Shown piece after piece: positions 43,244 to 51,077 of a stretch of 64,000 nucleotides of DNA. How positions within the stretch are numbered: position 1 is the first letter of the stretch; every line of letters begins with the position of its first letter. The stretch is taken from the NCBI GenBank assembly GCA_944387895.1, contig CALXGQ010000030.1, positions 1 to 64,000 on the forward strand. Reading direction: 5' to 3'. The notes under the pieces were generated by a model. The model did no database searches, was not told the origin of the DNA, and was given only the letters and a program-made list of their open reading frames with translations. The position numbers and the translations under genes are program-made. The stretch comes from an uncultured Clostridia bacterium. Its GTDB lineage: Bacteria > Bacillota > Clostridia > Oscillospirales > QAKW01.

Positions 43244-43972
43244 TCAGGTTTTTCTTGCGGATACGCGCCAATCGGCGCCCAGCGTAAGGGTAAGCTTGGT
43301 TTGATACCAATCCTCCAAAACGGTTTTCAGCGTTTCATCGGACTGCGCCAGAATGGTTTCCGGTTGGCCGTAGACCAGCAGAAGCTGGCCGAAATCCGCG
43401 CTGCTAATCCCCCGTTCTTCCAGGGCGGCCTGCTGTTCGGTGGTAAAGCAGGCCATCAGAAGCTCTTCCTCGCTCTGCTCGATAAACTGCCGGTACATCC
43501 CGATGGTCCATTGGGAGAGATCCCGATCGGTCAGCTCCGGATATGTAGAAGCAAGCAGATCCCGGGTGCTCTGATCCAGCAGCCAGTTGGCGGAGAGCTG
43601 TTCATACTGCCAGTAGGGCAGGTTTTCCATATCCGAATCGTCGTAGCCGTGGGCAAGGAGGTTTTCGTAGTATTCCTCCCGGTTGCCGTATTCCTTCAGC
43701 GGCGTTTCATTGAGCACCTTATCGGTATTCAGATTGGGGGTGGAAATACCCAGAGAAGAGGGCAGCAATACGCTTTGAACCACCGCGCCGGCTTCACCGG
43801 TGCGCTCATAGTTCAGAAGAGCCGATTTGACTTCCTCGCGGGTATAGCCCAGATCGGTTTCCGCCGCTTTTTCCAGAGCGGTATTGTCTTTGGTGATGGC
43901 GGGAACAAAGCCCACAACGGTAAGACATAAAAGCAGGCAGCAGGCCAGAACAATTTTCGTCAGCTTAGACAT
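43244..43972 (-). CDS. Exported protein of unknown function
   Basis: A 242-residue protein with an N-terminal signal or anchor (MSKLTKIVLACCLLLCLTVVGFV) and an acidic, mostly helical remainder. I recognise no domain. Stretches such as GYDDSDMENLPYWQYEQL and YPELTDRDLSQW are distinctive. The ATG at 43972 has AAGGAGGAG upstream. It is a single-gene unit located next to the S24 repressor. Confidence 0.75.
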   Translation of the reverse strand: MSKLTKIVLACCLLLCLTVVGFVPAITKDNTALEKAAETDLGYTREEVKSALLNYERTGEAGAVVQSVLLPSSLGISTPNLNTDKVLNETPLKEYGNREEYYENLLAHGYDDSDMENLPYWQYEQLSANWLLDQSTRDLLASTYPELTDRDLSQWTIGMYRQFIEQSEEELLMACFTTEQQAALEERGISSADFGQLLLVYGQPETILAQSDETLKTVLEDWYQTKLTLTLGADWRVSARKT

Positions 43973-44172: not shown

Positions 44173-44826
44173 TTATCGGATCAGGCTCTGGCAGGCCACG
44201 GCCTTTCCCAGAATCCGCGCCTGCTCCAGCTCTGCGCCGGAATAGACCAGCGGCGCGTAGCGGGGGTTTTCGGCGGCAAGGATCAGCCGGCTTTTTTCGG
44301 GATCATAATAGACCCGCTTCAGCGTGGCGGTGTCGTCGATGATCACGGCGGCGATCTCTCCGTTGCGCACCATCTCCTGGCGCCGGATGAAAACAATGTC
44401 CCCGTCCCGGATATGGGCGCCGATCATACTGTCGCCCTTGGCGCGCAGGCAGAAATCCGCCCGGATCCCGTCGCTCAGCTCCACGTAATTCTCATGCTCC
44501 TCCTGAGCAAAAATCGGCTCCCCGCAGGCGATATCCCCCAGCAGCGGGATCCGCCGCCCCGCCGGCCGCGCCGGCGCTTCCGCCCCGCCTCCGGTGGCCG
44601 CAAGCCATTCGTTCTTATTCCTATAAGGGGATTTTCCCAGCAGATAATCGGCATCCGCGCCGAAAAAATCCGCCAGCGCCGCCACCGTTTCAAGCCCCGG
44701 CTCCCGCTCTCCCCGTTCATACATATTGACGCTGCTTTTTGAAATTCCGATTTTATCCGCCAGCGTCTGCTGCGAAAGACCGTATTCCCTGCGCAGCAGC
44801 CGCAAACGTCCGGCAAATGGGTTCAT
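44173..44826 (-). CDS. XRE-family repressor with S24 self-cleavage domain
   Basis: A 217-residue LexA/cI-like protein. The N-terminal helix-turn-helix (about 7-62) reads YGLSQQTLADKIGISKSSVNM. The S24 domain has a cleavage dipeptide Cys101-Gly102 (GDIACGEP), catalytic Ser133 (KGDSM) and Lys170 (TATLKRV). RecA-stimulated autocleavage is the known fate of such repressors after DNA damage. It diverges from a Spo0A-like gene; both promoters contain GAGCAC-N3-TTGTGT. No phage genes are nearby, so it appears to be a chromosomal regulator. Confidence 0.9.
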   Translation of the reverse strand: MNPFAGRLRLLRREYGLSQQTLADKIGISKSSVNMYERGEREPGLETVAALADFFGADADYLLGKSPYRNKNEWLAATGGGAEAPARPAGRRIPLLGDIACGEPIFAQEEHENYVELSDGIRADFCLRAKGDSMIGAHIRDGDIVFIRRQEMVRNGEIAAVIIDDTATLKRVYYDPEKSRLILAAENPRYAPLVYSGAELEQARILGKAVACQSLIR

Positions 44827-44845: not shown

Positions 44846-44874
44846 ATTTTACACAAAATGTGCTCATTTGTCAA
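44846..44874 (-). promoter_or_regulatory. Promoter of the S24 repressor gene, with internal operator
   Basis: TTGACA (44869-44874), 17 bp, TAAAAT (44846-44851) on the minus strand. The spacer contains GAGCAC-ATT-TTGTGT (plus-strand positions 44851-44865). Confidence 0.75.
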
Positions 44875-44892: not shown

Positions 44893-44921
44893 TTGACAAG
44901 AGAGCACTAATTGTGTATAAT
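44893..44921 (+). promoter_or_regulatory. Upstream promoter toward the Spo0A-like gene, with internal operator
   Basis: TTGACA (44893-44898), 17 bp, TATAAT (44916-44921), a full consensus promoter. The spacer contains GAGCAC-TAA-TTGTGT (44902-44916), matching the site in the divergent promoter. Confidence 0.75.
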
Positions 44922-45079: not shown

Positions 45080-45113
45080 TTCGACAGCCTTTTAACAAAA
45101 AAATTGCTATCAT
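45080..45113 (+). promoter_or_regulatory. 0A box and possible second promoter of the Spo0A-like gene
   Basis: TTCGACA (45080-45086) is the complement of TGTCGAA, the Spo0A recognition box. A TATCAT -10-like hexamer follows at 45108-45113, with no good -35, as in Spo0A-activated promoters. Autoregulation, or control by the main Spo0A, is implied. Confidence 0.5.
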
Positions 45114-45194: not shown

Positions 45195-45971
45195 ATGAGA
45201 GAAACAAACGAGAAAATGACCATGGTGATGTTGCAGACGGACGAAGAGGCGGCGCGCTGTAACCGCGAGCATTTTTCCGCGCTGGGGATGGAGATTCTGG
45301 GCGTATGCAGCAGCGGAACCGACGCGGTGCGGGTGATCACGGAGCTGCAGCCGGACGTGATATGGATGGACAGTTTTTTACCGGGGCGCAGCAGCTATGA
45401 TATCATTGAAGCGCTGAACGCCGTAGGGTATCGGAAGAATACGGCGATCGCGGTGGTTTCGCAGGTGCCCAACGACCGGCTGGCGCAGCAGGTGATGGAG
45501 GCCGGGTGCGACCTCTTTATTCTGCCGCCGCTGGATTATCAGTTTATCCGCGACCGGTTCATCGCGGTGCTGGATAAGAAAAAAGCCGGCTCCGCCCCTG
45601 CGGACGACGGTCGTTTTGAGCTGGAGCGGTATGTGGCGGAGCTGATGCACGAGGTGGGCGTTCCGGCGCATATCCGGGGCTATGATTATATTCGGGATTC
45701 CATCCTGCTTTCTCTGGGCAACCGGAATATGCTCAAAGCCATTACCAAAGAGCTTTATCCAACGGTCGCAAAAAATAACAATACCACGGCCTCGCGGGTA
45801 GAGCGAGCCATTCGCCATGCCATAGAGGTCGCTTGGGGTCGTGGTGACATCGATACCCTCAACGCCATTTTCGGATTTACCGTCAAAAGCTCCAAAGGCA
45901 AGCCGACGAACGGCGAGTTTATCTCGATGCTGACCGAGCGGATCCGGCTGGACCGCAAGCTGGCCGGATAA
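45195..45971 (+). CDS. Spo0A-like sporulation regulator with degenerate receiver
   Basis: A 258-residue protein. The C-terminal DNA-binding domain (about 150-258) is near-identical to Spo0A, including MHEVGVPAHIRGYDYIRDSI, NTTASRVERAIRHAIEVAW and KPTNGEF. The N-terminal receiver keeps the phospho-Asp position (Asp59 in VIWMDSFLP), but the acidic pair is reduced to Thr15-Asp16 and the invariant Lys is Pro111 (FILPPLD). Phosphorylation control may be lost or changed. I use the ATG at 45195; a TTG two codons earlier is also possible. It stands alone, not beside spoIVB as usual for spo0A. Confidence 0.88.
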   Translation: MRETNEKMTMVMLQTDEEAARCNREHFSALGMEILGVCSSGTDAVRVITELQPDVIWMDSFLPGRSSYDIIEALNAVGYRKNTAIAVVSQVPNDRLAQQVMEAGCDLFILPPLDYQFIRDRFIAVLDKKKAGSAPADDGRFELERYVAELMHEVGVPAHIRGYDYIRDSILLSLGNRNMLKAITKELYPTVAKNNNTTASRVERAIRHAIEVAWGRGDIDTLNAIFGFTVKSSKGKPTNGEFISMLTERIRLDRKLAG

Positions 45972-46084
45972 GGCGGCGGCTGCAGTTCCAGGCGGCGGGA
46001 AGGGGAGCGCCGGTTCCTTTGCAGAGCAATAAGGAGCGTCCCAAACCGCCTGAAGGCGCTTTTCATCGCGCAGAATAAACGGCA

Positions 46085-46124
46085 GAGCGCCGAAAGCCAG
46101 CGGCTTTCGGCGCTCTTTTCTTTT
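46085..46124. terminator. Bidirectional terminator
   Basis: GAGCGCCGAAAGCC / GGCTTTCGGCGCTC with a 3-base loop and T-rich flank, between the Spo0A-like gene and the convergent ABC gene. Confidence 0.8.
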
Positions 46125-50021: not shown

Positions 50022-51077
50022 ATGCTATCAGCGAAAGAATATTTTTCAGAGCTTTATCGCGAGATGCCGAAGCCGATCCTGGTATATGACGCAGAGGGGC
50101 AGCTGTTATTCAGCACTTCTTCTGTCGGCGCGCTGCTGGCGCGGGTCGGGCAGGAATCGGAGTCGGCTTTGCTGACATATGCGGTGCGGCAGGAGGCGCA
50201 GCGCTGTATCGGCGAGCAGCGCGCCGCCGCGGTGCCGGTGGAGGCGGGGGAGGAGCAGCTTCTGCTTTTTATGACGCCCGTTTCATACGAAGGCCGGCCG
50301 TATCTGATCCTGGAGCCGCAGCTTCCGGCGCGGGATCCTGAAAGAGCGGCGGAGCTGCGGATTCTGCGCAATGCGCGGGGCAAGCTTTCGGGGCACCTCA
50401 ACGCCATTTACGGCGTGGCGCAGAAGCTGGGTCTGGATTCCCCCGAGGGAAAAATCCTGAGCAGCGAAACCCGCCGGATCCTCCGCATGGTCAACCACCT
50501 TTACCAGCTGCTTGACCGGGAGGGGACGACGGAATACCGGACCAAGGTGGACGTCGGCCGGTTTGTTTCCTCCTTTCTTCGGAACCTTTCCGATATTCAT
50601 CCGGGGCTTGCGGTGATAACGGCGCCTTTTGAGCAGGATCTGACGGCGGAAATGATGCCGGAGGATATGGAGCTGATTCTGGGCACGCTGATCAGCAATG
50701 CCTTCCGGTTCGGGGGGAAAACGGTGTGGGTGCGCACCTATCGATCCGGGGATCGGATCTATATTACCGTCTGCGACGACGGACCCGGCGTCGCGGCGCC
50801 GGACAGACTTTTTGAATGGGGCTACCGCACAGCGGACGCCAGAGGCGTAAAAGGGCTGGGCTTCGGCCTGGCCATGGCGCGGGAGCTGGCGAACCGGCAG
50901 GGCGCCGCGCTGCTTTATGAGCGGGAGGAGGGGCAGACCCTGTTTCATATCGTTCTGAAGGCGGCGGAGCTTCTGCCGGGCATGAAGCTGGCCGACTGGC
51001 AGCCGGAATCGCTGGAAAACAGCCTTTCTCAGATGCGAATCGAAATGAGTGATTATATAAAGGAGATGGAAGAATGA
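50022..51077 (+). CDS. Soluble orphan sensor histidine kinase
   Basis: A 351-residue protein without membrane segments. Residues 1-100 look like a PAS-type sensor ([19 protein letters not shown]). A dimerization region follows, with a candidate phospho-acceptor in [15 protein letters not shown], and a HATPase domain (about 205-320) with N box [10 protein letters not shown]1 DDGPG and G2 GLGFGLAMA. No response regulator is adjacent. It overlaps galE by four bases. Orphan soluble kinases in Clostridia can act on Spo0A, but this is only inference here. Confidence 0.8.

Follow-up and report, generated by a model that had tools for sequence, protein, structure and literature searches.

We analysed a 64-kb stretch of DNA (henceforth referred to as the window) from the genome of an uncultured gut bacterium of the Clostridia. 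A spo0A-like gene with an ATG start occupies positions 45195..45971 of the forward strand and encodes a protein of 258 amino acids, in which a degenerate receiver domain (residues 8-127, 45216..45575, +; supported by alignments, the AF2 fold and pairwise dN/dS) is followed at the C-terminus by a Spo0A_C DNA-binding domain (residues 142-256, 45618..45962, +; supported by profile match, alignment to Bacillus subtilis Spo0A and low dN). An earlier, sequence-only reading had called the product a Spo0A-like regulator, and the open reading frame, its coordinates and its identity as Spo0A were all confirmed by translation, Pfam and TIGR02875, the full-length Spo0A equivalog model, against which the product scores 225.6 bits (curated cut-off 200). 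The Spo0A_C match reaches 138 bits, and alignment to 1lq1 shows the conserved recognition stretch to be present. The DNA-binding half had been described as nearly identical to that of canonical Spo0A; this holds for the stretch TTASRVERAIRHAIEVAW, which is identical in B. subtilis, but not for the half as a whole, where identity to the B. subtilis protein is 52-56%. The receiver scores 35.6 bits against the Pfam Response_reg model (cut-off 30.2), compared to 94-113 bits for four further receivers encoded in this genome. Downstream, a strong bidirectional terminator-like hairpin (46084-46116) separates spo0A from a convergent ABC transporter gene. On the far side of the divergent repressor gene described below, 43244-43972 (-) encodes a 242-amino-acid protein with no Pfam or NCBIfam match, which also lies near spo0A in one congener (58%).

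Receiver pocket and fold

Asp59 (45369-45371, +), the phospho-acceptor position equivalent to B. subtilis D56, is retained, and Pro111 (45525-45527, +) stands where the catalytic Lys (B. subtilis K108) is expected; translation and alignment bear out the sequence-only reading on both residues. That reading had also reported the loss of one acidic metal ligand, at Thr15. Thr15 is indeed present, but deep alignments place Gln14-Thr15 at the positions of the acidic pair D10-D11, so that both acids are lost, and Asp16 at the position of Asn12, a register that agrees with the modelled beta1 at residues 9-13 (AF2). A small alignment can shift this register by one (Thr15 = D10, Asp16 = D11); either way, the Lys is missing together with one acid or both. 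A Ser occupies the conserved Thr/Ser position (by comparison to B. subtilis Spo0A). By the canonical description of a receiver, therefore, the acceptor Asp is in place and the acidic pair and the invariant Lys after beta5 are not. Since position 108 is Lys in 81 of 82 Spo0As sampled elsewhere in the class (42 families), the loss of the Lys is more than chance.

The AF2 model of the receiver has an intact (beta-alpha)5 fold (pLDDT mostly 92-98) with Asp59 at the end of beta3, and in Foldseek searches one half of the protein matches DNA-binding domains of Spo0A and the other matches ordinary receivers, the solved receivers aligning at a target TM of about 0.9. Within the genus, pairwise dN/dS (omega) of the receiver is 0.07-0.21 where computable, a rough estimate as synonymous sites are near saturation, and the SFLPGRS and PLDY motifs are invariant across the six members. 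Mean pairwise dN is 0.21 for the receiver versus 0.057 for the DNA-binding domain, a difference of about fourfold. Because the receiver is predicted to be folded and appears to be under purifying selection, it is, as far as model and substitution rates tell, repurposed rather than dead.

Spo0A pockets across the family and order

The family is represented by genomes assembled from metagenomes of uncultured bacteria, and we know of no cultured member. We defined the core pocket as at least one acid plus the Asp and the Lys. None of the family's 11 main Spo0As has it, and a canonical receiver was found in none of the family Spo0As examined. The 11 proteins form one clade (100) on the Spo0A tree, and the erosion of the pocket is therefore old and inherited. 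Position 59 is Asp in 10 of them and Glu in the remaining one, which belongs to the genus of the window (Asp59 in 5/6 members, Glu in the sixth). Members of this genus keep Asp16 and carry Q-[TSA] at the acidic pair and P, M or A at the Lys position; the corresponding residues are QP and I in a second genus of the family and T-[EN] and R in a third. The sequence-only reading had named, as evidence that would count against it, a sole genomic copy combined with orthologs that restore the Lys and the acidic pair. The copy is indeed sole in this genome (see below), but alignment of the receivers shows that no family ortholog regains the full set.

In the order as a whole, 39 of 81 main copies keep the core pocket, compared to 78 of 82 in the rest of the class, sampled as 42 families (Fisher p = 4e-12, for sequences that are not independent of one another). 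The fewest changes that account for the pockets on the Spo0A tree are 13 at the Asp (5 if Glu is counted as acidic), 7 at the Lys and 7 at D10, and at 10-20% divergence of the DNA-binding domain the receiver has diverged by 0.60 within the order versus 0.33 outside it. In two families (f4 and f9) Asn replaces the Asp in all sampled copies. One f9 genome (G019; a single contig of 3.0 Mb, 100% complete) has a sole Spo0A, whose pocket contains Asn and Met, and nonetheless encodes SpoIVA, SpoIVB, SpoIIGA and SpoIIE. From these alignments, the Spo0A pocket has eroded repeatedly across the order and is almost invariant outside it. Main Spo0As with Asn, Ser or Gly in place of the phospho-acceptor Asp were seen in f4 (L056, L057, L060, L062), f9 (L003, L009, L016), f3 (L006, L007, L014) and f15 (L024, L025), and SpoIVA and SpoIVB were found for most of the genomes of these four families that carry an Asp-less Spo0A.

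Promoters, gene complement and kinases

Divergent from spo0A lies a gene (44173..44826, -) that, by profile matches and conserved motifs, encodes an XRE helix-turn-helix plus S24 peptidase repressor, a LexA/UmuD-type autoprotease. The protein resembles the LexA/HdiR/UmuD S24 autoprotease repressors in domain content, in its Cys-Gly cleavage motif and in its Ser and Lys motifs. It differs from LexA in scoring 90 bits against the LexA equivalog TIGR00498, below the cut-off of 111 (the S24 peptidase domain passes its own), and in being the divergent neighbour of spo0A, an arrangement present in 6/6 genus genomes with the Cys-Gly site and the GDSM and LKR motifs conserved. Two sigma-A promoters diverge between the genes: a distal promoter directed toward spo0A (44893..44921, +; TTGACA-17-TATAAT, 12/12 consensus positions), found in all six genus genomes, and a promoter directed toward the repressor gene (44846..44874, -; TTGACA-17-TAAAAT), identified by sequence match. 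The spacers of both carry GAGCAC-N4-TGTG, of which the window contains two exact sites compared to 0.07 expected, and pattern matching gave one operator-like dyad in each: GAGCACTAATTGTG in the distal spo0A promoter (44902..44915, +) and GAGCACATTTTGTG in the repressor's own (44852..44865, -). CAC-N5-GTG-type dyads occur in this intergenic region in all six genus genomes, with variable placement relative to the distal promoter. From the position of the dyads, we infer that the repressor binds them. We rejected the possibility that the sequence separating spo0A from its distal promoter forms a structured RNA (fold z-score 0.36), and Rfam matches upstream of spo0A fall below threshold and stem from a 37-nt inverted repeat formed by the divergent promoters.

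Closer to spo0A lies a second promoter (45080..45113, +), a predicted autoactivation site with a 0A box at -35. It reads TTCGACA-(21)-TATCAT, where TTCGACA is the reverse complement of the 0A box TGTCGAA and the hexamers stand 22 bp apart. A spacer of 22 bp is unusual, but it is also found in the spoIIG promoter of B. subtilis, where a 0A box likewise covers the -35 region. This arrangement has a single match in the window (0.00 expected from shuffles); in the genus it is exact upstream of spo0A in 5/6 genomes and has CCGACA in the sixth. A site of the same type is predicted by sequence match upstream of spoIIGA in the window's own genome (TTTGAC-22-TATACT), and TTYGAC-22-TATACT precedes spoIIGA in all five genus genomes in which that gene was found (this genome and four congeners). 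Among 25 spoIIGA upstream regions of the order, spacing 22 occurs in eight, compared to two matches over the remaining spacings between 18 and 27. Since the spoIIG-type arrangement is absent from the scanned regions of all 81 spo0A genes of other orders, autoactivation through such a promoter appears to be concentrated in the family. In the third genus (L037 and L038), two TTCGAC boxes 10 bp apart form a tandem 0A-box arrangement upstream of spo0A (TTCGACAACATTCGAC and TTCGACCAAATTCGAC).

The complete genome (1.69 Mb in 32 contigs, 100% complete) contains a single Spo0A_C match. This disposes, for this genome, of the proposal in the sequence-only reading that the protein is a paralog competing with phosphorylated Spo0A; its alternative, that this is the only Spo0A of the lineage, is correct for the genome. 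The five congeners searched hold, in addition, extra divergent copies that are missing here. These additional Spo0A-like genes number from one to five per congener (L045, L046, L047, L049, L051-L055), and their receivers are degenerate where readable. SpoIIAA, SpoIIE, SpoIIGA, SpoIVA and SpoIVB are all encoded in the genome. With one Spo0A and these core sporulation genes, the organism is, by gene content, a genotypic spore-former, and loss of sporulation was rejected as the main reading. The absence of spoIVB beside spo0A, which had been observed before, was borne out: the genome's spoIVB lies on another contig (C19:33870-34472). The two genes are likewise on separate contigs in the family genomes that we looked at, and across the order they are not always neighbours. 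A spoIVB neighbour is the usual context of spo0A rather than a requirement.

Each of the seven HisKA kinases found in the genome adjoins a response regulator, and all seven of these regulators keep the full acid-acid-Asp-Thr/Ser-Lys set. Pocket loss is thus, on alignment, specific to Spo0A among the response regulators examined, and a general decay of two-component signalling was rejected. A histidine kinase open reading frame beside an intact response regulator (L382:2289-2855, G000:C6) ends inside HisKA (189 amino acids, no ATPase part) and could be a truncated gene, a frameshift or an assembly error.

The window also carries, 4 kb from spo0A, the one orphan histidine-kinase-like gene that was found (50022..51077, +), whose product is a putative pseudokinase on the basis of profile, fold and ortholog alignment. 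This product combines PAS-like, DHp and ATPase regions (HATPase_c 52 bits), its fold matches histidine kinases, and the N, G1 and G2 boxes for ATP binding are present and largely kept across orthologs. The phospho-acceptor His of the H-box, however, is replaced in all five orthologs (by Gly, Ser, Asp, Ala and Gly). The gene lies near spo0A in four genus genomes, is on a separate contig in another and was not found in one that is incomplete; outside the genus, only generic kinases matched it. Among the individually identified kinases of the genome, which account for eight of the 17 HATPase_c matches, no His-bearing HisKA kinase is an orphan; an orphan kinase of another class may be encoded among the other nine. 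The parallel degeneration of the orphan kinase's His and the Spo0A pocket is suggestive, the pairing of the two proteins being drawn from their position. In its PAS-DHp-ATPase layout and lack of a response regulator of its own, the protein resembles the orphan sporulation kinases of Clostridia as portrayed in passages of a review (PMC11210211); it differs from the kinases portrayed there in having lost the His.

Probable Spo0A activity without the phosphate switch

We consider it probable, at roughly 60%, that this is the sole and functional Spo0A of a genotypic spore-former in which the Asp-phosphate switch is no longer used and activity is governed by how abundant the protein is and by its autoactivation. 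As the DNA-reading half is kept and the residues of the phosphate switch are lost, spore formation is probably triggered in another way, for example by the amount of Spo0A made. The phosphorylation independence proposed in the sequence-only reading is well supported, if indirectly, by the pocket loss throughout the clade, the seven intact regulators and the loss of the phospho-accepting His from the only orphan kinase found. In the most economical version, the amount of Spo0A would replace its phosphorylation as the control variable, and the receiver would mediate dimerisation, either constitutively or under the control of a partner, or would bind a partner. Inactivation of the repressor would release the distal promoter, gated by this LexA-like protein, to supply Spo0A; the protein, once made, would switch on both spoIIG and its own proximal 0A-box promoter in a positive loop. 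In what is the most speculative step, the orphan pseudokinase could act as an ATP-dependent partner of the receiver that transfers no phosphate. In B. subtilis, the sad67 allele is constitutively active and turns on early sporulation genes without the phosphorelay, and efficient sporulation with this allele needs further signals (PMC4689505). A wider proposal, which we regard as doubtful, is that sporulation has repeatedly become independent of phosphorylation within an order of gut Clostridia, and that the genus has replaced phosphorylation control with a LexA-like gate and 0A-box autoactivation, a former sporulation kinase being kept as a partner that binds ATP and the pseudo-receiver but transfers no phosphate.

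The conservation of Asp59 in 10 of the 11 main family copies suggests that this residue still matters, and one genus of the family carries Arg rather than Lys at the Lys position. Residual phosphorylation therefore stays the main rival, in which Asp59 would still be phosphorylated, weakly or slowly, in an altered pocket (e.g. with Asp16 as metal ligand), giving a phospho-switch with changed kinetics. The Glu in the only genus member without Asp59, the Ser at the Thr position and the Asp16 kept in the genus are in keeping with it; the loss of the Lys and, in deep alignments, of both acids, the lack of a His-bearing orphan HisKA kinase among the identified kinases, and the exchange of Asp for Asn in other families of the order that retain sporulation genes speak against it, and we consider it unlikely. 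That the receiver is instead decaying as sporulation initiation is lost, leaving Spo0A as a relic, would suit its fourfold faster change and the small genome but sits poorly with the low omega, the intact predicted fold, the conserved 0A-box promoters and the core sporulation genes of complete relatives, which make it quite improbable. We hold just as little by the notion that Spo0A in the genus has been redirected toward control outside sporulation: the spoIVB neighbourhood is lost throughout the family and a LexA-like gene is the divergent neighbour in the genus, but the 22-bp-spaced 0A-type promoter is kept at spoIIGA and the set of sporulation genes is retained. That the protein is a paralog acting without phosphate in competition with a canonical Spo0A is scarcely credible, as the divergent extra copies of other genus members are set against the single match in this complete genome and the want of a canonical receiver in every family Spo0A examined.

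The protein shares with the Spo0A of Bacillus and Clostridium (TIGR02875) its domain order, its family score, the stretch TTASRVERAIRHAIEVAW and the 22-bp 0A-box promoter at spoIIG. It departs from them in the lost acidic pair and Lys, in a spo0A located away from spoIVB and in the gene's own spoIIG-type 0A promoter with a divergent LexA-like repressor. Aspartate-less receivers such as RitR, ChxR and FrzS likewise have a receiver fold without the canonical phosphorylation pocket; they usually lose the Asp and mostly keep the acidic triad-1 and the Lys-Pro motif (PMC4395418). The window's Spo0A shows the reverse, with Asp59 kept and the acids and Lys lost, and so falls outside that class; the Asp is replaced in the sampled f4 and f9 members of the order.

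To our knowledge, endospore formation is described as always being entered through phosphorylation of Spo0A, and no report of a sole Spo0A without phosphorylation chemistry was found in the literature searched. A study of Spo0 pathway evolution (PMC6136694) and the review of clostridial orphan kinases (PMC11210211) treat Spo0A as phosphorylated in the passages searched, which do not describe pocket loss. Metagenomic work also relies on the presence of spo0A to identify spore-formers (PMC11536998). A sole Spo0A that would lack phosphorylation chemistry, in a genome with core sporulation genes, would mean that initiation can be rewired with the output regulon unchanged, and the repeated, graded losses within one order (intact, Glu, Asn and Lys-less pockets) may offer a natural series for the escape of a response regulator from its kinase.
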